The translations under genes and the position numbers were made by a program. Positions 23,339 to 36,375 of a DNA stretch of 64,000 nucleotides are shown piece after piece; within the stretch, counting starts at the first letter, position 1, and each line of letters starts with the position of its first letter. The stretch lies in contig JASBUK010000095.1 of assembly GCA_030147925.1 (NCBI GenBank), positions 1 to 64,000 on the forward strand, read 5' to 3'. Origin of the DNA: Trueperaceae bacterium (GTDB taxonomy: Bacteria > Deinococcota > Deinococci > Deinococcales > Trueperaceae). Under the pieces are notes generated by a model. The model was not told the DNA's origin and ran no database searches. It saw only the letters and a program-made list of their open reading frames with translations.

Positions 23339-26300
23339 TTAAGCACAACCGGCCTTGGTATATACGGTAAGTTGTCTGATAACCCCGTCGCGGCGGAAAA
23401 CATGTTGACTGAACTCCTCGTTCATAGAGCTACCCATCCCCTCCTGTGAGTCCCCGTCAGCTAGCTGGATAACGATTTTTTCCTGCTCTGCGGCGCGGTA
23501 AACTACGGGTAGTTGACAAAAGGTAAAGGCCAGCGAATCTTTGGGCAAATCAAGCTTTTGTTTTTTGCCGGCCACATCGATATAGCTAAAGACGCCAGGC
23601 TGCTGCTTAAACTCTCGCTCTCTAAGCAAAAGCGGCTTAAAGGAAAGCCGACCTTGTTCCACCCATGCTCCCATTTCACCTAAACGCGTGAGAATTTCCT
23701 CCTTGACCTGGCCGGTCATGCCAGGCTGTTTAGCTCCCTGGCCCGCCGGTGTGTGCGAATAGGGGTCGGTAGGAAAAGCCCCATAGACATCTGGGGTTTT
23801 GTTAAAACCGAGTCCCTGGCGAATGTCATAGTAGGTTTCTGTCAATGCCGATAAGGTAGTCGGTGTCACACCCGCGTCACTAGCCCGCCAGTAGGTTTCC
23901 TGCACGGCCAGCAGCAACTTAGAGACCATATGCCAGTAAATACTGCCCAGACCCTCGTAGGCAAAAAAAGTTCCGGAACGGCCTGTAAAGGACTGGTGAT
24001 CAAACACCTCATCGAACAATTGCAGCACCACATCTGCCTCTGCCTCGACCAGTTTGACCAACTGAGCATCTTGGGGCAGTTGCAGTAGAGCCCGTTTGAC
24101 ATCCTTAGCATTGCGAAATTCGCCGTTAAAGTGATAGGCACCAGACACATCACGGCTGATAACGCTCCGGTCATTGCGCTTAAGCAATGCTAGCAGCAGC
24201 GCTGAGTTCTGCACTTTTGCAGACGGTATGGTGTTTTTTTGTAAAAAGCCCGCTAAGTCCCTATCCGGGTAGAGCATATAGCTGTGCTGGTCGGCTCGAT
24301 ACATAGGGCTATTACGCAAGCTTTTGAGCAGTGTCAAAGACTCATCTGCTGATAAGATACCAGCTGACAAGATCGCCACTTGCCCCTCAAGCATCGCAAA
24401 AAGATGGCTGACCGAAGCTTTTTTGCCGTCTAACTGCAAAATATTGTAGGCGTGGTAAAGCCCGTCCTCGCGTTGATTGGCGCTAAGTGTATGTTCGACA
24501 TAGTGCAAGGCAATATCTAACAAAGCCAGCAGCGCATCTTTGTTTAGTTCTGCCAACTCACCCGAAAGCCCCTTTTCGTAACAATGCCAGCGGTAATTGC
24601 TGGCGGCAATTCCCAGTGCATCCATGACAGCACGGCGCTGCTCATCGCCAAACGTGGTCTGCAAGGCCGCTTGATGCTCGAGCAGAGTCGCATGAACCTT
24701 GTCAAAGAGGGTTTTTAGCTCCCAAGTTATTGGCACGCTACCGCTGGTTTTAGCAAACAAATCCCGGCAAAAAGCTATAAAACGTCGCAAATAACAAACA
24801 GTCACCACAGAAAGACCCTTGCCGACCAAGGCATTGTTGGCATCATTCCATTCCGGGCGCTGGGTGTTCATCCAAATACCACCTTCGGGCACGAAATTAA
24901 CCAGCTTGGCCAGCAGCAGACTGAGCAGTTTTTCCGTTAGGTTAACGTGTAAGACCTTAGCGCTAGCGTCAGGTAGCAATTTGGCATCCGTGCCCAGCAA
25001 AGCAACTTTGGCGGTGATTTGTTTATCCAGTTCCGCATCAAAATCTATGGTGTTGTAGCAGTCTTTTAACAGCGAGGTATAGGGTTTGATTCTGTAGGGC
25101 ACGTTGGCATAGCTAAATATCCTGCGCGCTAACAGAGACTGTAATTTGCCGGGATGAAAGCGTGCGGAAACTTCTAAAAGCTTTTGCAGGTAGATTATCT
25201 GATGGTCGCTCCAGTAACCGATATTGGCCCAGGGATTATCCGGTTCTGGGACTTCCCACTCAATCCCCGCCCGGGTCACACGGTAAGGATTGTAGCCGTC
25301 GGCGGTTGTGGCATTAAGAAACTTGCAAATCATAGTTTCAACAAATTCGGGATAGCTGTAGGCCAGTGCCTCCCAGTTTTGAAAGATGTCGCGCCAATTG
25401 CCCTGATAATCCAGTCGTTGACTACCATCGGGATTTTTTAAGTTGATCGAAAAACGGTTCCAGGGGCGGCTGGGGTCACCGTGTCGGCGGCTAAAGCTGA
25501 GTGGCAGGTATTCATAACAGAGCCGCTCGATATCGGCTACGGCAGTTTCTGCCGCTCTAGTCAGCAAATCGGCGACATTCACTTGCGTCGACAATTCTGC
25601 AAAGAAGCTGGCCACAAGCTCGAGCACTCCCGGATTGCGCACACGCACAAAGTCCAGCAGGTCGGCCTTGTCGATGGTGTAGTTGTCAGCAAAATTGCCA
25701 CCGCGCATAACATTAAAGAGCACGTTGGCAAAATGATGGGCGGCATCGAGCCGGTCAGCTGAATTTTGCAGGCCATCGCTGCTGGCAACAATATCAAGCA
25801 GATTATCCCTCCCCTGCTTGATATCGCTTAATAAGCTTTGCTTTAGTATTGATTTATCCGTCTTCAATTCTCTTAGCAAGGCTGCAATGTCACTGCTGCC
25901 CTGGTTTACCTCGGCTACGAGACTCCACTCCTTTTCCTCACCTGGGGCCAGAGCAAAGTCAGCATTGAGCAGATAAGCACCGCGTTTGCCGCGAATATCG
26001 CTTTCCGGTCGAATGGCGAGACCCTGTCTAAACGCCTCTAACTGCTCCGAGGAAAGCAAATAACAGACCCTCTTAAGACCAATTTGCCAGACGGTAGTCG
26101 CCTTGAGCGATTCGCTGGGTTCGGCCAAGTCGGTCAGAGTGGCGCTGAGCGCAAAAATACCCAGGCCCGTTTGCGGCTCGAGCTCATTGCGTTTATAGGC
26201 ATTGAGCAGATTGCTCATGTTGTTTTGTAAAGTGGTTGTCACTCCGTAGGGTAAAAGGTTCTGCAAACCATCGACAAGACTAACCGGACAACTCTCAACA

Positions 26301-26812
26301 TCATCGTTTTTGAGCCAGGCGGTTCTGACTAAGCCATAGCGGTCACTGCTGCGCCAGGCATAACGAAAGCGTAGTTTAAGATCGTGGTTAATCTCTTCAA
26401 AGACCAGGGTGTCGCCACTGATGTTTTTATACAGATTGCGCTTAAGCCGGTACAAACCACCGTAGCTTGCCGAAAACGGTTCCCATAAGTAACGGCACTC
26501 TTGTCTATCTATCAACAGCACCGTTTTACTGCCGGTGTTCTCACTGTTTTCCGAGAGCTTATCTTCTGTGTAGTAAGGAAATAAAGCCGCCTCGGCATTC
26601 ACCCGGCCAGCACTGAGACCGCCCGTGCTCGAAATAAACAGCCAGTGATCCGTGCTACTGACGATGCTCATAAAAAAGGGCGGCATCCGGTCATAATTCT
26701 CGATGCGGTAGAAGGTCTCACCAAGCATCTCGACATAATTACCCTCAACACTCTTATCCTCATGATGAACAGGACAAGCACCGATATAGACACTCTGATG
26801 TTTTTGACTCAT
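23339..26812 (-). CDS. Very large phosphorylase-like protein of the beta-glucan locus (candidate GH149/GH161/GH94-type)
   Basis: 1157 residues, no signal peptide, so cytosolic. The N-terminal third looks like a beta-sandwich (FFMSIVSSTDHWLFISSTGG near residues 45-65). The rest is helical with aromatic acidic motifs: NWRDIFQNWEALAYSYPEF, NPWANIGYWSDHQIIYL, RSGTFFAYEGLGSIYWHM and QPGMTGQVKEEILTR. The last two recall the C-terminal regions of inverting beta-glucan phosphorylases. Size and neighbours (GH16 laminarinase-like, GH1, sugar importer) suggest a beta-1,3-oligoglucan phosphorylase, by inference only. ATG at 26812 chosen; an upstream TTG at 26830 lacks support. No Shine-Dalgarno is seen. 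Confidence 0.6.
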   Translation of the reverse strand: MSQKHQSVYIGACPVHHEDKSVEGNYVEMLGETFYRIENYDRMPPFFMSIVSSTDHWLFISSTGGLSAGRVNAEAALFPYYTEDKLSENSENTGSKTVLLIDRQECRYLWEPFSASYGGLYRLKRNLYKNISGDTLVFEEINHDLKLRFRYAWRSSDRYGLVRTAWLKNDDVESCPVSLVDGLQNLLPYGVTTTLQNNMSNLLNAYKRNELEPQTGLGIFALSATLTDLAEPSESLKATTVWQIGLKRVCYLLSSEQLEAFRQGLAIRPESDIRGKRGAYLLNADFALAPGEEKEWSLVAEVNQGSSDIAALLRELKTDKSILKQSLLSDIKQGRDNLLDIVASSDGLQNSADRLDAAHHFANVLFNVMRGGNFADNYTIDKADLLDFVRVRNPGVLELVASFFAELSTQVNVADLLTRAAETAVADIERLCYEYLPLSFSRRHGDPSRPWNRFSINLKNPDGSQRLDYQGNWRDIFQNWEALAYSYPEFVETMICKFLNATTADGYNPYRVTRAGIEWEVPEPDNPWANIGYWSDHQIIYLQKLLEVSARFHPGKLQSLLARRIFSYANVPYRIKPYTSLLKDCYNTIDFDAELDKQITAKVALLGTDAKLLPDASAKVLHVNLTEKLLSLLLAKLVNFVPEGGIWMNTQRPEWNDANNALVGKGLSVVTVCYLRRFIAFCRDLFAKTSGSVPITWELKTLFDKVHATLLEHQAALQTTFGDEQRRAVMDALGIAASNYRWHCYEKGLSGELAELNKDALLALLDIALHYVEHTLSANQREDGLYHAYNILQLDGKKASVSHLFAMLEGQVAILSAGILSADESLTLLKSLRNSPMYRADQHSYMLYPDRDLAGFLQKNTIPSAKVQNSALLLALLKRNDRSVISRDVSGAYHFNGEFRNAKDVKRALLQLPQDAQLVKLVEAEADVVLQLFDEVFDHQSFTGRSGTFFAYEGLGSIYWHMVSKLLLAVQETYWRASDAGVTPTTLSALTETYYDIRQGLGFNKTPDVYGAFPTDPYSHTPAGQGAKQPGMTGQVKEEILTRLGEMGAWVEQGRLSFKPLLLREREFKQQPGVFSYIDVAGKKQKLDLPKDSLAFTFCQLPVVYRAAEQEKIVIQLADGDSQEGMGSSMNEEFSQHVFRRDGVIRQLTVYTKAGCA

Positions 26813-26984
26813 AACATAATCACCAACCAACGTGAGGGCCTAGGCCCTCACGCCAAAATTTCTTGATATTTAAGAACCATCCAAAGCTTTTACCTGAATG
26901 TTCACTACGTTTTTAACAAAGTTCGACCAAGTCAGTAAATTGCATTTCCGCGCCGTACCAAAGCAGCATAGTCTCGGCAACCAA

Positions 26985-29900
26985 CTAAGGCTCGAGCCCT
27001 AGTTGGTCAATATAAAGATTGCCGCTTAACTCGCTGGAAAGTTTAAATCCATAACCCCATACCTCATCAAGCCCCAGACCGTCATTAGGCGCACCAGCAG
27101 GCTGCTTGGCACTGCGGCTGAAATCACTAAAGGGTAGGCTTATCTTTTGCCAGCCACTAAAGTTATCACTAAAGCTAGCCTCAAAACGCTCGGCGCTGTC
27201 CGGCCCCTGATAAACCCGAACGTAATCAATGACCAGCTCCTGTGGGAAAACGGTATCCGCAGCAACCGGGCCACCAAAATTACCGCCAACAGCCACATTG
27301 AGAAGCAGGAAAACTGGATCGTTAAAGACCCACTCGTTGGGGGCTACATCGCCTGGGGTGGCGCTGTGATAAAGGATGCCATCCACGTACCAGTTGATCG
27401 AGTCGGGCTCCCATTCTATAGCGAAGGTGTGAAAGTCCTCAAAAGCCGGCTTAGCGAAGTTATAGGTATTGCCAAAGCTTTGCCCACCGGAGTAGCCGGG
27501 GCCGTGAATGGTACCAAAAATTTCATTGGGCAAACGACCGACAAATTCCATTATGTCAATCTCGCCTGTCTGCGGCCAGCCAACTTCGTCAATGTCTGTT
27601 CCTAAGCTCCAGAACGCGGGCCACAGACCTGCACCCTGTGGGAGCTTGATGCGGGCTTCAATGCGACCATAGGCAAACTCCGCCTTGCGCCAGGAGATAA
27701 GACGCGCCGAGCTGTAGTCGCAAGGCCCGTAATAACATTGCAGCGAACCATCGGCTTCTTTAGCGCTTATAAGCAGATTGCCTGAACCATCCATAGCGGC
27801 ATTCTCAGTACTATCACTGTAGTACTGCAGTTCACTGTTGCCCCAACCGGGTATGCCGTTAGCAGCGCCGTCGCCAATTTCGTAGCTCCAGTTAGCGGGG
27901 TTGGGCGGCGTGCCGACTGGCTCATTGAACTCGTCGCTCCAGACCAGGCTCCAGCCTGACGGGCCAGGGTCGGGAGCGCGGTTATCTTTTAATTGCACGG
28001 TAATATCAAGGCCGCTATTCGTGCCGTAAAACCAAAATGACAACCCGTCGGCTTCGGCCCAGTTCTGACCGATGGCAAAGTCACGGCCAAAACTAAGCAC
28101 GCTACTGGCTACAAAAGTCTCTCCGGCAAAAGTCGCACCCGTTAACGAGGTCTCTGTGCTGTTGCAGTCGTAACCTGTTTCGTTTACCCGGAAGTGAAAA
28201 AGCAGATCGGTGTCCCCATCATTATCCACATCTTCTTCATGACGTTTTGGCTGGTTGTTTTGCTTATTCACATGCGTTTCGGCGGCAACCCCAAAACGAA
28301 CGCTGCTGTGATCAACGGTGGTGGCATCAAAATTATCCGTGGTCAGGATAGCCACCGGAACAACAGCATTACCCCGGTTGCAAAGATTGCCGTCAATGCG
28401 GATAGCCACGTTGTTATCGGCGCTTACTTGCAAGATATTCTCGTAAGCACCCTGAGCAGGGACAGCTAAGGGATCACCAGGGGCAACCTCTAAGGGCTCG
28501 AGCAGCACATTGCCACTGCCGTCCCACAGGTAAGCGCCTCTTTCAAAATCATCAATCAGTTTAGTGTCCAAGGGGTCATCATCAAGGATAGTCAGCGTCG
28601 CCTGAGTCACAAAACCCAGCGTGACACCCAGCGGATCGACAAGGCGCAAAATGGCGCGGCTATCACCATCGTGTTTATTATCTTCAAAGCTGTCTATGCT
28701 AAAAGTCTGCTCGGAAGGCCCACCCTGGTTAAAGCTGAGCGTGCCCTGGGCAGGGCTATAATCACGGTCCGGGATAGCCGTACCTGGCTCCGTGAGGTAA
28801 GAAACGCCGACTTGTTGCGGGTCGTTGGCGTCTGCACCCAAGGGCCGGTTAAGCTTAACGCTAATGGTAGCGCTGCCGCCTTCACTGACATCGTAATTAT
28901 TGGCCGAAAAGGTCACGGCCAGTTCCGGCGCCGTAGCCTCGCCAAAAAGACCCACATTATCAAGGTAGTTGCTAAAGGCCAGCCCACTGTCAAAAACACC
29001 AAAGGCCCAGCCGTAAACCTCGTTTAGATTAAAGCCGTCATTGGGCGCACCGTTGCCAATTTCCTTGCGGTTAAAATCAGCAAAGGGAATTTCAAAGAAA
29101 CGCCAGCCAGCAAAATCATCGATGATATCCACCGAGAAACGCTCGGCGGTATCTCCGCTGGAACCAGGGGCAAGGTTATCGAGGATGTCAATAAACATTG
29201 TGCTGCCGGTATTATTGCCATAGAGCCAGAAACCAATGCCTGCAAAACTGCTCCAGTCTTGCGGTGTCCAACTGTTGAGCGCTTGATTCTCGAAAAGGTG
29301 AACCAGACCGGCAAAGCCAAAGTTGTTGTTTACATTGGTATCGACTTGTAAAACATTATTGTCGCTCCCAGCCCCAAGGGGTTGCTCCGGTGGTGTGCTG
29401 GTGGTGCTTATGGCCACGGTGCTGTTGGGGTCGTTAAAAGTCACGAAGCCAATGGCATTGCCACTGCTGTCACTACCACTGAATAGACCAGATTCAAAAT
29501 CATCAATCAGGGGAAGCTCGAGCGCTAGCTCGTCTATGTGCAGCGTGCCTACATTACCGTCAAGAACAACGGCCCAACCATAGATTTCAGTTAGGGTAAG
29601 ACCATCGTTGGGTGCGCCCCCAGGCTGAAAATCGATGGCTCGAGTAAAGTCTGTAAAAGGAATAACCAGCTGCTGCCAACCTACAAAGTCATCGATAAAA
29701 ACCACATCGAAACGCTCGGATGTGTCAACAGCAGGGTCAGAGCGATTATCAAAAATTTCAAACTGGTAGGCGTTAGCACTGTTGGTGCCGTAAAACCAAA
29801 AGCTGACGCCAGCGGCATCGCTCCAGTCCTGCGGGCTGGTAGTAGCGTTAAAGTCCTGACCAAAACCAGCAAAACCGCTGCCAACATTAAAATTGCTTTC

Positions 29901-30191
29901 CAAGACGGTATTATCACCAAGCTGGCCGGGTCGCGCCAGGGCATCGTTGTCTGCAACGATGAGCGTATCCGCCGCAACGGAAGCCCCTGCGCCGCTGAAG
30001 ACAAACCAACCTCCCGGAAGACCGGATTCAAAATCTACCAGTATGGTAGTTGTGAGGGCTTGTTGCTTAATTTGGGCCTGACTTCTTTCATTTTGGTCAA
30101 AGTTATTGAGACTTTGCCCCTGCTGGCAAGCACTCAAAACCCCAAGCATAATTGCGCTCACCACAACATATTTAGCAAATCGACTTATCAT
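26985..30191 (-). CDS. Multidomain GH16 beta-glucanase lipoprotein with nested carbohydrate-binding domains
   Basis: Cell-attached glycoside hydrolase of 1068 residues; lipobox LSAC near 22. Order: two carbohydrate-binding domains of similar sequence (about 50-225 and 228-417, each with FWFYG/FWLYG and WQQLVIPFTDF-type strands), a Calx-beta domain (425-538), then a third copy of the binding domain split in three. It starts at 544, is interrupted at ~595-690 by a CNRGNAVVPVAILTTDNFDA domain, resumes to ~740, is interrupted by the GH16 catalytic domain (748-995), and finishes at 998-1068. The GH16 site is EIDIME with E877, D879 and E882. Probable substrate is laminarin or a mixed-linkage beta-glucan. 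GAGGT lies 5 bases before the ATG. Confidence 0.9.
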   Translation of the reverse strand: MISRFAKYVVVSAIMLGVLSACQQGQSLNNFDQNERSQAQIKQQALTTTILVDFESGLPGGWFVFSGAGASVAADTLIVADNDALARPGQLGDNTVLESNFNVGSGFAGFGQDFNATTSPQDWSDAAGVSFWFYGTNSANAYQFEIFDNRSDPAVDTSERFDVVFIDDFVGWQQLVIPFTDFTRAIDFQPGGAPNDGLTLTEIYGWAVVLDGNVGTLHIDELALELPLIDDFESGLFSGSDSSGNAIGFVTFNDPNSTVAISTTSTPPEQPLGAGSDNNVLQVDTNVNNNFGFAGLVHLFENQALNSWTPQDWSSFAGIGFWLYGNNTGSTMFIDILDNLAPGSSGDTAERFSVDIIDDFAGWRFFEIPFADFNRKEIGNGAPNDGFNLNEVYGWAFGVFDSGLAFSNYLDNVGLFGEATAPELAVTFSANNYDVSEGGSATISVKLNRPLGADANDPQQVGVSYLTEPGTAIPDRDYSPAQGTLSFNQGGPSEQTFSIDSFEDNKHDGDSRAILRLVDPLGVTLGFVTQATLTILDDDPLDTKLIDDFERGAYLWDGSGNVLLEPLEVAPGDPLAVPAQGAYENILQVSADNNVAIRIDGNLCNRGNAVVPVAILTTDNFDATTVDHSSVRFGVAAETHVNKQNNQPKRHEEDVDNDGDTDLLFHFRVNETGYDCNSTETSLTGATFAGETFVASSVLSFGRDFAIGQNWAEADGLSFWFYGTNSGLDITVQLKDNRAPDPGPSGWSLVWSDEFNEPVGTPPNPANWSYEIGDGAANGIPGWGNSELQYYSDSTENAAMDGSGNLLISAKEADGSLQCYYGPCDYSSARLISWRKAEFAYGRIEARIKLPQGAGLWPAFWSLGTDIDEVGWPQTGEIDIMEFVGRLPNEIFGTIHGPGYSGGQSFGNTYNFAKPAFEDFHTFAIEWEPDSINWYVDGILYHSATPGDVAPNEWVFNDPVFLLLNVAVGGNFGGPVAADTVFPQELVIDYVRVYQGPDSAERFEASFSDNFSGWQKISLPFSDFSRSAKQPAGAPNDGLGLDEVWGYGFKLSSELSGNLYIDQLGLEP

Positions 30192-30224
30192 TATCAACCT
30201 CAATCAATTCCAGCAGTTAAAAAC

Positions 30225-31580
30225 TCAGGGCAAAACAGCTCGTTCTTGTTGTCGAAGGATAAAATCGCTATACCAGCGAGCACTGTCTTTTAGGACGCGT
30301 TTTTGCGTTTCATAATCGACATAGACCAGACCAAAACGCTTGGCGTAACCGTGCCCCCACTCAAAATTGTCCATTAAGCTCCAGGCAAAGTAACCGCGCA
30401 CATCCACACCTTGCGCTATAGCCTCGTTAACAGCTTCTAGATGCGATTCAAGATAGTGCAGGCGGGCGCTGTCATGAACCCGATCATTCTCCAAAACATC
30501 TGCAAAGGCAGAGCCGTTTTCAGTAATAAAAATCGGCAGTGATCTAAAATCTTTATGCAGTCTTAGTAGCAAGTCGGTCAGTCCTTGCGGGTAGACCTCC
30601 CAGCCCATTTCGGTGTATTCGGCGTCTGGCACGGTTACAGCGCGAACCCTAGGCCAGTCACCACTTTCTTTATCTGCAACTAGCGAGCGGGTGTAGTAAT
30701 TTACCCCCAGGAAATCCATGGGGGCCGCTATGGTCTGCAAATCACCATCCTGTAAGCTTGGTACGCTTTCGCCATAACCTGCCCAGGCATCTTCAGGATA
30801 GCTGCCTTTAAAAAGGGGGTCTAAATACCAGCGATTGAAAAAACCATCTAAACGCCGGGCAGCCGCTATGTCCTGGGCGCTGTCACTCGCTGGCTGGGCC
30901 GGATACAAATTCAGCACGATGCCATGCCGGGCTTTTGGAGCATTCCTGCGCATGACACTAAGAGCGCTGCCGTGCGCCAGCAAGAGATGATGTGCAGCTT
31001 GTAAGGACTTGGCTGTATCGGCAATGCCCGGAGCATGATGTCCGGTGCCATAGCCAAGATGTGCTGAACACCACGGTTCGTTAAGGGTTGCATAGGCTAA
31101 AACGCGATCCCCGAGTTTAGTCGTCACAACATCGGCATAATCAACAAAGGCCGCAACGATATCGCGGTTCAGCCAGCCACCTTTATCTTCCAGGGTCTGG
31201 GGTAAATCCCAGTGATAGAGTGTACAAAACGGCTTGATGCCGCGCCCCAAGAGGCCATCGACCAGACGGTCATAAAAATCAAGACCCTTTTTGTTCACAG
31301 GCCCGGTGCCATTTGGCATAATGCGTGGCCAGGCAGTAGAAAAGCGATAGGCATTCACCCCAAGTTTCTGCATGAGGTCTAAGTCCGCCTCCCAGCGGTG
31401 GTAGTGGTCACAGGCAATCGCCCCGCTCTCGCCATTATGAACCTTGCCGAGTGTAGCGCTGAAAGTATCCCAGATGGATGGTCCCCGCTCATCTTCATTG
31501 ACAGCGCCCTCGATCTGATAACTTGAAGTGGCGACACCCCAGAGGAAGTCCTGAGGAAAGCTTGCTTTTTTTGATGACAT
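30225..31580 (-). CDS. GH1 beta-glucosidase
   Basis: Retaining beta-glucosidase of family GH1, 451 residues, no signal peptide. It would split imported beta-glucosides. It opens FPQDFLWGVATSSYQIEGA, has acid/base glutamate E168 in TLNEPW and nucleophile E354 in FITENGS, with NYYTRS and WSLMDNFEW completing the active site. It lies between the importer and the GH16 gene on the same strand, consistent with one beta-glucan operon. The gene name bglA is common for this type but is not assigned here. Confidence 0.95.
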   Translation of the reverse strand: MSSKKASFPQDFLWGVATSSYQIEGAVNEDERGPSIWDTFSATLGKVHNGESGAIACDHYHRWEADLDLMQKLGVNAYRFSTAWPRIMPNGTGPVNKKGLDFYDRLVDGLLGRGIKPFCTLYHWDLPQTLEDKGGWLNRDIVAAFVDYADVVTTKLGDRVLAYATLNEPWCSAHLGYGTGHHAPGIADTAKSLQAAHHLLLAHGSALSVMRRNAPKARHGIVLNLYPAQPASDSAQDIAAARRLDGFFNRWYLDPLFKGSYPEDAWAGYGESVPSLQDGDLQTIAAPMDFLGVNYYTRSLVADKESGDWPRVRAVTVPDAEYTEMGWEVYPQGLTDLLLRLHKDFRSLPIFITENGSAFADVLENDRVHDSARLHYLESHLEAVNEAIAQGVDVRGYFAWSLMDNFEWGHGYAKRFGLVYVDYETQKRVLKDSARWYSDFILRQQERAVLP

Positions 31581-31692
31581 GTTTATTTAGCTCCTATGAC
31601 GTTAACTGGACTCTTGGCCTTAACGAGCCTCTTAAAGCATTTCCGATATGAGGCAAAAAACGTTACTCGCTGCCAGACAGTTGCAACTGATA

Positions 31693-32769
31693 TTATTTTT
31701 CCCCGGTAACCACGATGCCCTGCATAAAGAAACGCTGCGCAAAGAAGAAGATCAGCAGCGGAATAATCATGGTCAGGATGGACGCCGCCTGAATGAGTTG
31801 TGGTTCAGAACTGTACAAGCCGTTAAACCTAAACAGACCCACGGCAATTGGGTTTAGTTCCGCGCTGCCCGCTAAGTAGATGAGCGGCCCAAAGAAATCG
31901 TTCCAGGCGAAGAAAAAGTGGAAAAGCGATACGGCGATAAGGGCTGGCACCGCTTGGGGCAAAATCACCGAGATGAAAGTGCGAATTGGTCCGGCCCCAT
32001 CAATGCGCGCGGCTTCCTCCATTGACGTAGGAATGGTCATGAAGTACTGCCGCAGCAAAAATACGTTGTAAGCGTTGGAAAAAAACTGTGGCACGATTAG
32101 AGGCAGCCAGGTCCCCACCCAACCAATCCGGTAGAAGAAAGCGTACATAGGCACCAGCGTGACCTGCGGTGGCAGGATAATGGTGGAAATCAAAATGATA
32201 AAGAGAACGCTCTTAAAAGGAAATCTGAAGCGCGAAAAGCCGTAAGCAACAATGGCTGCCGAACTGGTTGCCGCAATAGTGGTGACGATGGCATATAGGA
32301 GTGTAAAACCCAGCAAACGCCAAAAGTTGATGAAGTTAAACGCCCTGGGATAATTACTCCACTGAAAGGCCAGCTGGTAAGAAGGTTTAAGTGTGCGCCA
32401 GCGCCCTTGCCACTCGATTAAACCCGCCTCGGGGTTTTGGGGATCGACAAACTGGCTCGAGCTCCGACCCTTTTGCACCAACGCCCACTCTTTTTCTCCT
32501 TCAGCCGTAGGTATCTTATAGACATCGTATTCCTCGCCCTCATAGAAGTAAGTTTGCGCTTCAGAGGGCAAGATGGGCGCATTGACATCCGAGACTTGAG
32601 CCTTGCTTTTAAGCGAGGTCAGGACACTGTACCCCAGGGGCAAAAGGTAGAGCAGTAAAATCACCAAAGTCAGCGAGGTAATAGCGGCACGCATCACCAG
32701 CGTACGGCTCTGCTTGTTAAGACTGCGGTCTTTCTGGCGGGTAGTTTGGGTGGTGCTGATCGTAGCCAT
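31693..32769 (-). CDS. Sugar ABC transporter permease (MalG-like) with a periplasmic insert
   Basis: Inner-membrane permease of a carbohydrate ABC importer, 358 residues, six helices. The coupling motif EEAARIDGAGPIRTF lies in the last third. Between helix 1 and helix 2, residues ~58-125 form an insert rich in charged and aromatic residues (TYFYEGEEYDVYKIP, EWQGRWRTLKPSYQLAF), larger than in MalG. The ATG at 32769 overlaps the stop of the upstream permease (TAATG), so translation is coupled; the longer frame to 32799 is not needed. No ATPase gene is present in the locus, so a shared MsmK/MalK-type ATPase is expected elsewhere. Confidence 0.93.
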   Translation of the reverse strand: MATISTTQTTRQKDRSLNKQSRTLVMRAAITSLTLVILLLYLLPLGYSVLTSLKSKAQVSDVNAPILPSEAQTYFYEGEEYDVYKIPTAEGEKEWALVQKGRSSSQFVDPQNPEAGLIEWQGRWRTLKPSYQLAFQWSNYPRAFNFINFWRLLGFTLLYAIVTTIAATSSAAIVAYGFSRFRFPFKSVLFIILISTIILPPQVTLVPMYAFFYRIGWVGTWLPLIVPQFFSNAYNVFLLRQYFMTIPTSMEEAARIDGAGPIRTFISVILPQAVPALIAVSLFHFFFAWNDFFGPLIYLAGSAELNPIAVGLFRFNGLYSSEPQLIQAASILTMIIPLLIFFFAQRFFMQGIVVTGEK

Positions 32770-33752
32770 TAGCGTGTCTCCGCCGCGTAGTAAACCCAAT
32801 AGCGCGCGGTGCCAAAGAGCAAAACGGTAATGCCTAAGGCAATTATGAACATAAACCAGGCGATGGTTGAACCGTAACCCATGTTAAGAAAGCCAAAGGA
32901 TTGCTTAAAGAAATGGATCATGTAGTAATAAGTCTGCCCTTGGGGATAGCCGCTACCACCGTTTAGGACATAGGGAGTAATGAAATACTGCATCAGCCCA
33001 ATAACGCCTAAAACCAGGTTGTAAAAAATGACCGGCGTAATCATGGGTAAGGTGATGTTTACTGTTTTAGTCCAAAAGTTAGCGCCATCGATATCGGCGG
33101 CTTCATACAAGGCCGTGGGAATCCCCTGAAGGCTGGCCAAGTTGTATAAGATGGCGTTGCCAATGGCCCACAAACCGATAAAGGTGTAAGCGATGTAGAC
33201 TAAGAAGGGGTCGTCAAACCAGCGAATCCCGTTAGGCCCCGCCGCGTCAAAGCCCGTTATAAATTCAATGAGTTGGTTCAGCCAGCCTGTGGTCGGGTCT
33301 AAAAAACCGCTCCAAATCAGCACCCCGGCGACGGCTGGAACCATGACCGGTGCGTAAAACAGCGTTCGGAACAAGCTTGTGCCGATAAGGTGCTTTGAGT
33401 TAAGCAAAATCGCCAGAAAGATGGCCGAGATCATACCGACGGGCAGCGAAATAAGGGCGAACTTAAAGGTGACCCCCAAAGATTGCCACACTAAAGGATC
33501 ATCAAACAACAGGCGACGCCAATTTTCCAGTCCTACAAAACGGGCCTCTTCTGGGGCGGTAAGCTGAAAGTCAAAGAGAGAAAAAACCAGCGAGGCAATC
33601 ATCGGCACGAAGTAAAACAGCAAGAAGCCAACCACCCACAAACTGATAAAAGCGTAGCCCCAGCGCGCCTCACGCCTGGCCATAGTGCCAAGCTTGCCGC
33701 GCCGCCTACGTTCACCCCCTGCGCGTTGAACCTCATCCAGAAACATTGCCAT
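32769..33752 (-). CDS. Sugar ABC transporter permease (MalF-like)
   Basis: First permease of the importer, 327 residues with six helices, starting after a basic cytosolic segment (GGERRRRGKLGTMARRE). The coupling loop is YEAADIDGANFWTKTVNI. It follows the binding-protein gene by about 150 bases and overlaps the MalG-like gene by one base. GGAG precedes the ATG by 7 bases. The substrate is probably a beta-gluco-oligosaccharide, from the linked GH16 and GH1 enzymes. Confidence 0.93.
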   Translation of the reverse strand: MAMFLDEVQRAGGERRRRGKLGTMARREARWGYAFISLWVVGFLLFYFVPMIASLVFSLFDFQLTAPEEARFVGLENWRRLLFDDPLVWQSLGVTFKFALISLPVGMISAIFLAILLNSKHLIGTSLFRTLFYAPVMVPAVAGVLIWSGFLDPTTGWLNQLIEFITGFDAAGPNGIRWFDDPFLVYIAYTFIGLWAIGNAILYNLASLQGIPTALYEAADIDGANFWTKTVNITLPMITPVIFYNLVLGVIGLMQYFITPYVLNGGSGYPQGQTYYYMIHFFKQSFGFLNMGYGSTIAWFMFIIALGITVLLFGTARYWVYYAAETR

Positions 33753-33902
33753 AAACTTGCTCCAATCGTGCGGGATACCATCCCACGGTACTGCCGTGAG
33801 GCTTTTAACCTTGCGGCGCTTTTACTTCTATAACTTCGGGCCAAACAAGGTCGCAGCATATGGGGTCCAAGCTATATGCCTGAACCCCAGTTGTAGTTTT
33901 GC

Positions 33903-35255
33903 TTAGTTTCTGGCTTTAGCTAAGTCAAAAATGCGCTGGAGGTCGCTTATAAGTAGCTCGAGCTCAGCATCAAGGTCAAGATCGGGCTCGTTTTCAAGGC
34001 GTTGTGTAAAGGCGTTGTAGCGATCTTCTGCTTCGCGAAAACCCGGCAAACCTTCTTCGTGGTTGGGATTATCGGGGTAGCTCAGGCTATCGACAACCAC
34101 CTGCCAGTTAAGATCCTGTCCAGGGAATTTTTCCTCGGCAAATTTCGCCAAGAACTCCTCTTGCAAACTCAGACGAGCAGGCATGCCACCATAAATGTTG
34201 GCAAGTCGACCGGCCACTTCCGGGCTGAGCAGATAAGTCAAAGCCGTGAAAGCCGCCTCAGGATTACTGCTGGCTTTGGGAATACCAAAGGTGTCGGCGT
34301 TCAAGTTTGCAGTTATCTTCCCATTGTAAGAGGGTAATGCGGCCATATCCCAGGCGGCGCTTAGAGATGTCATGCAGCAGCCCAGGTACCAGAGCTGGGT
34401 CTGCGCCATTGCCAAGTTACCGGAGTCAAACCAGTTACCTTCGCCAAGCAGCGCACTGTTTCCGTAGGGGCCGTTGGGGTAGAAATAGTCTTCCCACATG
34501 GCGTCTTGATACCACTCGATGGCTGTACGCCAGTTATCGGGAATAACGGCGTTGCCTTCATCATCCACAAAGTTACCGGCGCCAAACAGGGTGAGGCGAC
34601 CGCGAATGTCTCGCCACATAGTGCCAAAGCCCCACTGCACGATGTTATTGGGGTCAAACTCCGCCATGGTAGCATCATTGCCGTTGGTGTCAACGGTGAG
34701 AATCTTGGCGACTTCGCTCATGGTTGCGATGTCCCAGATCTTCTCTACACCACTCTCATCAATATATGGTGCGCCGTATTCTGCCGGCGGATAGGCTAAA
34801 CCCGCTTCGTCAAAAAGATCCTTGTTATAAGAGAGGAACGAAGGGAACACGGCAAAGGGAATCCCTAATTGGCCTTCATCTCCAAGTCGATAAAACTCAA
34901 CCAGAGCTGGATCAAAATCACTCAGGTCATAGTTGTTAGCCTCTATCAGAGGTTGCAAATCAAGCCACACACCCGGAAAGGCCGAACGACCCCGAATCCC
35001 CATCGGGCCTACGATATCCGGAGCATTTCCCGCGGCAATTTGGGTGGCTAAAACATCATAAGCCTGGGTGTTATCGACAATTTCCAGCACGAGCTTTACT
35101 TCATTTTGAGAGGCGTTGAATTCTTCGACGACAGCTTCCTGTGCAGCAATAGTGGGTTCGTCGGTGCCCGCCCCAAGACCGACGTACCAACGCACTTCGG
35201 TCTGAGCTAAGGCAATCCCTAACAGGAGCGTTAAGAGCACAAAAAATTTCTTCAT
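33903..35255 (-). CDS. Extracellular sugar-binding protein of the ABC importer
   Basis: Solute-binding protein of 450 residues. The signal peptide (MKKFFVLLTLLLGIALAQ) ends ALAQ with no lipobox, so it would be periplasmic in a diderm. It belongs to the cluster 1 / MalE-like type: EEFNASQNEVKLVLEIVD, IAAGNAPDIVGPMGIRG and the later KITANLNADTFGIPKAS. Many Trp residues in the middle would suit sugar stacking. AAAGGA stands 6 bases before the ATG. A CG-centred palindrome lies just upstream at 35281. Confidence 0.93.
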   Translation of the reverse strand: MKKFFVLLTLLLGIALAQTEVRWYVGLGAGTDEPTIAAQEAVVEEFNASQNEVKLVLEIVDNTQAYDVLATQIAAGNAPDIVGPMGIRGRSAFPGVWLDLQPLIEANNYDLSDFDPALVEFYRLGDEGQLGIPFAVFPSFLSYNKDLFDEAGLAYPPAEYGAPYIDESGVEKIWDIATMSEVAKILTVDTNGNDATMAEFDPNNIVQWGFGTMWRDIRGRLTLFGAGNFVDDEGNAVIPDNWRTAIEWYQDAMWEDYFYPNGPYGNSALLGEGNWFDSGNLAMAQTQLWYLGCCMTSLSAAWDMAALPSYNGKITANLNADTFGIPKASSNPEAAFTALTYLLSPEVAGRLANIYGGMPARLSLQEEFLAKFAEEKFPGQDLNWQVVVDSLSYPDNPNHEEGLPGFREAEDRYNAFTQRLENEPDLDLDAELELLISDLQRIFDLAKARN

Positions 35256-35280
35256 TTACTTTCCTTTCCGCTCCGGCACT

Positions 35281-35299
35281 CCAAAAAACGTTTTTATGG
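35281..35299. promoter_or_regulatory. Candidate LacI-family operator before the importer genes
   Basis: CCAAAAAACGTTTTTATGG is an imperfect palindrome centred on ACGT, 26 bases before the binding-protein start. CG-centred A/T-armed palindromes are typical LacI/GalR operators, and a LacI-family gene lies immediately upstream. Confidence 0.5.
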
Positions 35300-35376
35300 C
35301 AAATTTTGCAATAAAGTAGATATTTGGGGTGGGAGCTTTGATGCCGTGGTCAGAACAGCTGCGCCAACAGCTGCTC

Positions 35377-36375
35377 CTAGCGAATACTAGTAACGGATTT
35401 TCTGACGATTAGCTCAGGCTCAAACTTGCGTCTCACCCCCATTTCTTTACCATCCAGAGCGGCTAAAGCAAGCTTTGCCGCAGCCTGACCCATCTCAAAG
35501 AGTGGCTGACGAATGGTTGTAAGCGCAGGATAGAGATAACGAGCCAAGAGCACGTCGTCGAAACCCACCAACGAGATATCTTCCGGCACTCTTAAGCCTG
35601 CTTCGCGCAGGGTTTGCAGTACTCCTACGGCCATCTGATCGTTGGCGACAAATATTGCACTAAAGTCAAGTTTGCGCTCGAGCAGACGCTTGGTGGCAAT
35701 TTGTCCTCCCGCTTCCATAAAATCGGCCTCGACAACAAAATCTTCTTCATAGTTCAGACCGGCTTCTTCCAGCGCCCTGCGGTAGCCAACCAATCTTTCA
35801 CGGCTATCGTGAATCGACAGTGGCCCGGTAATATGGGCAATGCGCCGGTGCCCTTTTTCAAGCAAATGCCGCGTTGCCAGCCTCCCCCCCGTTTCGTTAT
35901 CGAGGTAAACACAGCTCTTAGCGAGTTCGGCAATATAGCGGCCAATCACCAAAATAGGAATGTCGCCTTTAGCCCAATTTAGTAAGTCGGCATCCGGTAG
36001 TTCTTCCGAATGGATAATCAGGGCATCGGTACGGCGCTGTTTTAAGAATTCAACCGCCCTGCGCTCAGTTTCGGCCTTGGCATGACCGCTGGCAACGATC
36101 AGGTGCATACCGGCCTCTTCTATCACCTCTTCAACACCTTTTAACAAAGTGCCAAAATAGGGGCTGGACAAATCATTGACAGTTACGCCAACACCCCCGG
36201 AGCGGTTGGTTACCAAACCCCGGGCAAAGGCATTGGGCTGATAATCCAGCTTTTGCACGGCATTCAGGACGCGTCTTTTGGTCTCATCGGCAACCGGCAC
36301 CGTGTCATTCAACACGCGTGAAACCGTGGAAATGGATACGCCGGCTAAGCGGGATACCTCTTTGATCGTAGACAT
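35377..36375 (-). CDS. LacI-family transcriptional regulator of the beta-glucan locus
   Basis: Sugar-responsive repressor, 332 residues. The helix-turn-helix with hinge starts STIKEVSRLAGVSISTVSRVLN; the hinge and PBP-like effector domain follow (SSPYFGTLLKGVEEVIEEAG, AIFVANDQMAVGVLQTLREAG, ISLVGFDDVLLARYLYP). It is encoded directly upstream of the binding-protein gene on the same strand, and probably controls it and itself. Two palindromes lie upstream: TATGAAAACCTTTTCATA (36385-36402) and TGTAAACGCTTTCA (36550-36563). Confidence 0.93.
   Translation of the reverse strand: MSTIKEVSRLAGVSISTVSRVLNDTVPVADETKRRVLNAVQKLDYQPNAFARGLVTNRSGGVGVTVNDLSSPYFGTLLKGVEEVIEEAGMHLIVASGHAKAETERRAVEFLKQRRTDALIIHSEELPDADLLNWAKGDIPILVIGRYIAELAKSCVYLDNETGGRLATRHLLEKGHRRIAHITGPLSIHDSRERLVGYRRALEEAGLNYEEDFVVEADFMEAGGQIATKRLLERKLDFSAIFVANDQMAVGVLQTLREAGLRVPEDISLVGFDDVLLARYLYPALTTIRQPLFEMGQAAAKLALAALDGKEMGVRRKFEPELIVRKSVTSIR

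Follow-up and report, generated by a model that had tools for sequence, protein, structure and literature searches.

The insertion of a catalytic domain into a CBM is already known from BoPDA, a polysaccharide deacetylase of Bacteroides ovatus in which a CE4 domain is inserted in a CBM beta-sandwich (PMC11713874, PDB 9D44), the sole case found in the literature searched. The reverse nesting, with the CBM placed inside the catalytic domain and still binding, is described in PMC7848910 for the Xyn10C/Pm25-type GH10 xylanases, where CBM4s are inserted in the catalytic barrel, and, as cited there, for SusG, where CBM58 lies in a GH13 domain. In the fungal arabinofuranosidase MgGH51, a CBM4-like beta-sandwich without a binding cleft is inserted (PMC7604909).

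We describe here a protein encoded in a 64,000-nucleotide stretch of DNA from a Trueperaceae bacterium (the whole of which we refer to as the window), in which a GH16 domain is nested inside a CBM11. The protein resembles BoPDA in being a predicted lipoprotein with its catalytic domain in a CBM sandwich, the two flanking pieces of which make up one sandwich; this arrangement, sandwich pieces on either side of a complete catalytic domain, was recovered from profile continuity, from 53 proteins and from an AF2 prediction. It differs in that the BoPDA CE4 sits after the first few strands of a chitin-binding-domain-like sandwich, occurs only in Bacteroides and belongs to capsule synthesis, whereas the GH16 lies deep in a CBM11, is found in three phyla, belongs to a glucan-degrading locus and shares its CBM with a second insert. 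Like the GH10 xylanases and SusG, the window protein is a discontinuous CAZyme with CBM/catalytic nesting and a putative surface enzyme of a glycan-utilisation system, but its nesting is the opposite, the catalytic domain lying within a CBM without the known ligand residues. With MgGH51 it shares a CBM-like sandwich that takes part in a domain insertion and apparently has no binding site, although in the fungal GH51 the sandwich is the insert and not the host. No report of a GH16 nested in a CBM11 was found in the literature searched, subscription papers being outside that search.

Domain order and gene neighbourhood

The protein is encoded on the minus strand of the window by a 1068-residue open-reading frame (30191-26988) with no internal stop, starting with an ATG at 30191 that has a GAGG six bases upstream. 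Its N-terminal signal peptide carries the lipobox LSAC, which by the established lipobox rule makes it a probable lipoprotein. Two intact CBM11 copies are followed by a Calx-beta domain and then by a third CBM11 with two interruptions, the first a ~95-residue segment of no named family and the second an entire GH16 domain (Table 1). In a Pfam search of the whole protein, CBM_11 was matched in four stretches (E 8e-49), together with GH16 (3.5e-26) and Calx-beta (2e-8). The preliminary description had taken copies 1 and 2 to be unbroken, which holds, and had placed GH16 at residues 748-995, in close agreement with the boundaries found here (about 747-996).

Table 1 Features of the nested protein and of the neighbouring genes in the window.
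Feature	Residues	Window position	Strand	Evidence
Signal peptide and lipobox LSAC	1-23	30123..30191	-	Direct sequence reading
CBM11 copy 1, intact	~53-228	29508..30035	-	Pfam PF03425 E 1.9e-24, copy alone
CBM11 copy 2, intact, 'RKEIGNGAPNDG' subtype	~230-418	28938..29504	-	Pfam PF03425 E 5.4e-11; family HMM 217 bits
Calx-beta	~425-540	28572..28919	-	Pfam PF03160 E 1.9e-8; 34.8 bits, cut-off 27
CBM11 copy 3, piece 1	~543-601	28389..28565	-	Family HMM 23-60
Insert 1, ~95-residue 'PVAILTT...DVDNDGDTDLLFHF'	~602-696	28104..28388	-	No Pfam family at threshold
CBM11 copy 3, piece 2	~697-746	27954..28103	-	Family HMM 79-113; Pfam profile 74-103
Insert 2, GH16 laminarinase-type catalytic domain (predicted)	~747-996	27204..27953	-	Pfam PF00722 E 3.5e-26
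GH16 catalytic motif E-I-D-I-M-E	877-882	27546..27563	-	E877, D879, E882 invariant in alignment
CBM11 copy 3, piece 3	~997-1068	26988..27203	-	Pfam PF03425 E 6.9e-13, profile 111-178; family HMM 116-186
Downstream neighbour, GH149 1,3-beta-D-glucan phosphorylase		23339..26830	-	NCBIfam NF058639 1663.6 bits, cut-off 1150 (equivalog); PDB 6hq6
Upstream neighbour, GH1 beta-glucosidase		30225..31580	-	TIGR03356 664 bits, cut-off 478.5
Upstream, two ABC sugar permeases, solute-binding protein, LacI regulator		31693..36375	-	Pfam PF00528, PF01547, PF00356/PF13377

The GH16 motif GEIDIMEF follows the pattern E-x-D-x-(x)-E, and its E877, D879 and E882 are invariant in an alignment of 44 rows. We take these three residues to have the catalytic roles established for GH16. 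The domain matches the Thermotoga maritima laminarinase 3azx with a phmmer E of 1e-75, and its model aligns with 2hyk at a Foldseek TM of 0.95 of the target, both the family profile and the jelly-roll fold being recovered. The laminarinases of T. maritima (3azx), Nocardiopsis (2hyk) and T. petrophila (4dfs) have the same fold and catalytic motif and about 50% identity over the whole domain, but their catalytic domains are free or in tandem, whereas the window GH16 is inserted in a CBM. As these are its closest solved structures, we predict the GH16 to be of the laminarinase type.

Together with its neighbours, the gene lies in what appears as a compact beta-1,3-glucan utilisation locus (23339-36375) of GH149, nested GH16, GH1, ABC transporter and LacI genes. 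Seven further loci from Trueperaceae and Chloroflexota (L033, L036, L038, L046, L047, L049 and L050) also have a GH149 close to the nested gene. The flanking GH149 and GH1 indicate the use of a laminarin-type glucan, and the protein is best read as a putative surface endo-beta-1,3(1,4)-glucanase belonging to a locus for the use of such a glucan.

Relatives of the nested protein show further arrangements. A 2702 aa open frame from Anaerolineales bacterium HSG25 (L062:2103-10208) contains by Pfam eight CBM11 matches, two Calx-beta domains, the nested GH16 and a C-terminal GH3, bringing two predicted glucan-degrading activities together in one chain. By eye, the nested laminarinase of four Trueperaceae members (L036, L037, L041 and L042) stands behind an apparent N-terminal GH3 beta-glucosidase domain. 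At the C-terminus of the 1210-aa frame from Microbacterium (L055) there is an LPXTG-like tail (LASTGG and a hydrophobic stretch), and this homologue may therefore be anchored to the cell wall and not be a lipoprotein.

A CBM11 domain split around GH16

The family HMM used for copy 3 consisted of intact CBM11 copies from other proteins, with the window sequences left out. With both inserts removed, copy 3 gave one continuous CBM11 match of 141 bits over HMM 23-186, the three pieces scored singly reaching 13, 40 and 81 bits; in a 1000-sequence setting the joined domain had an E of 1.9e-42, and Pfam PF03425 also matched it as one stretch (67.6 bits, cut-off 27). On the HMM the breaks fall at 60|79 and 113|116, with almost no profile position absent at the GH16 site, and the continuity of the joined match across these breaks therefore fixes the GH16 insertion site to within a few residues. 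The joined-domain score and the same break in 53 distinct proteins show that the nesting is not due to chance, and as judged from the profiles the nesting of CBM11 around GH16 is real.

Two other accounts of the split were weighed against this evidence. The C-terminal ~72 residues score 81 bits against the family HMM without the remainder of the copy and are well predicted on their own, as they might be if they were a small domain in their own right and did not complete the fold begun by the earlier CBM11 pieces; we regard this as very improbable, since they cover only profile 116-186 of one known domain, the complement of which sits directly upstream of GH16 in a continuous joined match. Because the genome containing the window is a draft assembly in 151 contigs, an assembly or gene-model artefact fusing separate genes was also considered, but the same domain order recurs in 53 proteins, including one in a single-contig genome (G084, CP070651.1) and one in the named isolate Microbacterium sp. 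Marseille-Q6648 (L055), which leaves this account with practically no likelihood, and it was rejected on the strength of the same nesting in independent genomes.

Residues 540-1068 (529 residues) were modelled by AF2 from the 44-row alignment with a mean pLDDT of 90.6 and a pTM of 0.81, superseding a poor model made with 7 relatives only (pLDDT 63.5). Both values support a predicted closure of the three pieces into one sandwich with GH16 looped out, so that sequence, a confident model and the recurrence of the nesting in 53 proteins all uphold the nested architecture proposed in the preliminary description. GH16 accounts for about 251 of the modelled residues (47%), CBM11 for 183 and insert 1 for 95. 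As GH16 and CBM11 together form 82% of the chain, the pTM would imply a fixed position of one relative to the other, such a value being hard to reach for a 529-residue chain unless both domains are placed together. Only about 8-9 residues at one junction and 3-5 at the other join GH16 to CBM11, and these short junctions and the pTM lend indirect support to the rigid hold on GH16 that had been suggested. Foldseek searches with both AF2 models returned only GH16-type targets among the best 50 matches listed.

CAZyme annotation assumes beads on a string, whereas about 250 catalytic residues lie here inside a CBM, so that automated domain calls give a truncated CBM and can mislead construct design; a construct that cuts out the CBM11 at the annotated limits would disrupt a single fold. 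One chain has both intact and nested members of a single CBM family, which can serve as internal controls, and this putative natural two-point mounting of a glycoside hydrolase makes the effect of rigid attachment on polysaccharide activity directly testable.

Ligand residues of the nested CBM11

The CBM11 family is matched by profile (E 5e-11) to the CBM11 of C. thermocellum endoglucanase H (CtCBM11, PDB 1v0a), which thus belongs to the same CBM family as copy 3; CtCBM11 is contiguous and has Arg126, Asp128 and Tyr129, whereas copy 3 of the window is split. The loop that receives GH16 aligns with the CtCBM11 loop bearing Asp99, and an FxRxxDYQP segment aligns with the other three residues. 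We take Asp99 to be part of the ligand cleft of CtCBM11 and Arg126, Asp128 and Tyr129 to line its beta-glucan cleft.

A motif scan revealed a sharp difference at this segment between intact and nested copies. Where the QP motif was present in intact copies, the aromatic residue before it was kept in 48 of 48, the Asp in 47 of 48 and the Arg-Arg/Lys pair in 46 of 48. The clear 'QP' comparison took in 32 of the 53 nested copies, the remainder being unparsed by the scan or divergent, and in these 32 the aromatic residue was never found (0/32), the Asp (D-x-QP) was found in three and the R-[RK] pair in none, while the loop was one residue shorter than in intact copies in every case. Copy 3 of the window reads FSRSAKQP here and departs from the ligand-residue pattern. 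Loss of the motif from simply being the last copy was rejected as an explanation, as un-nested CBM11-CBM11-CBM11-GH16 proteins (L063-L075) keep it in all three copies, the last included; the loss therefore tracks nesting and not place in the chain.

By descent copy 3 is thus a CBM11, but it probably does not bind glucan in the known way, and the nested CBM11 has the look of a frame more than of a glucan-binding module. Some other binding site in it may be compatible with the loss of the known ligand residues. The preliminary description had GH16 held against the binding face of this domain: the insertion loop does occupy the Asp99 position, but the ligand-aligned residues are lost almost without exception in the nested copies scanned, and a functional beta-glucan site of the known type is improbable on this face. 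The nested CBM11 is further degenerate in three members from the Anaerolineae sample (L095, L097 and L101), in which even the ERF motif after the junction is gone. Another short, divergent member (L044, G073:C50) has a Calx-beta-like region and a nested CBM11 with no intact CBM11 copy, and its C-terminal piece has diverged too far to be matched by the family HMM.

As a whole, we consider it probable that the protein is a secreted, lipid-anchored endo-beta-1,3(1,4)-glucanase with GH16 inserted in a loop of its last CBM11 beta-sandwich and with this nested CBM11 as a frame. Because short links tie each end of GH16 to the same domain, the nested CBM11 would act as a two-point mounting frame, keeping the catalytic cleft in a set orientation towards the Calx-beta spacer and towards the intact CBM11s, and the latter would do the binding of the glucan polymer. 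Released oligosaccharides would then enter through the ABC transporter, to be broken down by phosphorolysis (GH149) and by the GH1 beta-glucosidase. The position of the insertion in the Asp99 loop, a D-[ST]-[AS]-E-R-F motif conserved beside it in most nested copies and the fixed GH16-CBM11 pose suggested by the predicted model's pTM would also suit a nested CBM11 that still binds glucan, its cleft aligned with the GH16 groove and one chain spanning both; we find this rather unlikely given the near-complete loss of the ligand residues from nested copies and the shortened loop in all 32.

Spread of the nesting and the second insertion site

A search for the same nesting elsewhere, proposed in the preliminary description, identified by a stringent rule 53 distinct nested proteins among 118 distinct GH16 domains, distributed over three phyla (Trueperaceae, Chloroflexota and Actinomycetota). 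GH16 occupies the same CBM11 position in them (~113|114), the C-terminal piece starting at HMM ~107-120, mostly 113-116. When named genomes were scanned with an alignment of the junction, covering the border from GH16 to CBM11, the nesting was detected in Chloroflexota, Acidimicrobiia, Cellulomonas, Microbacterium sp. Marseille-Q6648 and Trueperaceae. Whole-genome searches found it in about 15 genomes of the window's family, in about 24 out of a sample of 346 genomes belonging to the class of the genome with L047, in 6 of 247 from the class of that with L048 and in 2 of 396 from the order of that with L061, and phylum-level searches added a few more cases. Nearly all strong matches were of two kinds: nested ones that spanned the full length (query ~4-370) and plain ones that covered GH16 only (query ~50-300). 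Restriction of the nesting to the window's genome was rejected, as other genomes of the family, class, order and phylum carry it.

The ~95-residue segment that had been reported to split copy 3 near its first strand is real (about residues 602-696), but its position was misjudged, as four predicted strands come before it and it interrupts the CBM11 roughly one third along its length (profile 60|79). No Pfam family was matched at threshold by this segment (PVAILTTDNFDATTVDHSSVRFG...DVDNDGDTDLLFHF). A segment of this PVAIL type occurs at the same place in L003/L032, L048, L053, L084, L085, L114, L115 and L116, an unrelated, apparently helical segment of ~130-160 residues is found there in L050, L086 and L117, and the site is empty in most other members. 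The site appears as an exchangeable domain socket, holding a PVAIL/DxDxDG-type or a helical segment by member. On the GH16 tree the three helical cases sit among PVAIL-type relatives, and this interleaving of the two types suggests repeated exchange.

That a second loop of the same CBM11 takes two unrelated inserts points to a permissive scaffold, and in a published GH10|CBM4 enzyme the inserted CBMs could be excised without loss of catalysis (PMC7848910). Both observations would fit a neutral recombination accident with no effect on catalysis, kept because the GH16 termini are close and the loop is tolerant. We judge such an accident unlikely, as the position of GH16 is constant in 53 proteins from three phyla and the loss of ligand residues tracks nesting, which together suggest a specialised role. 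A broader reading, which we put forward tentatively and hold to be somewhat less than probable, is that a cross-phylum laminarinase clade turned a CBM11 into a non-binding mounting frame, the domain losing its ligand residues after or with the uptake of GH16 and its other loop serving as an exchangeable domain socket. If true, CBMs would be convertible from ligand binders into a structural chassis for the enzyme itself.

The nested and plain types are separated by a single change on the GH16 tree, a value as low as which was reached in 0 of 500 shuffles (SH-aLRT 71), and the nested CBM11 copies also cluster on a tree (2 changes vs 44 for shuffles). These patterns, which have weak support, are compatible with a single origin followed by transfer between phyla. 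The window GH16 groups with Acidimicrobiia and Anaerolineae sequences and not with the main Trueperaceae clade, and the genome G084 contains one copy of each GH16 type (L003/L032 and L033), which together suggest horizontal transfer.
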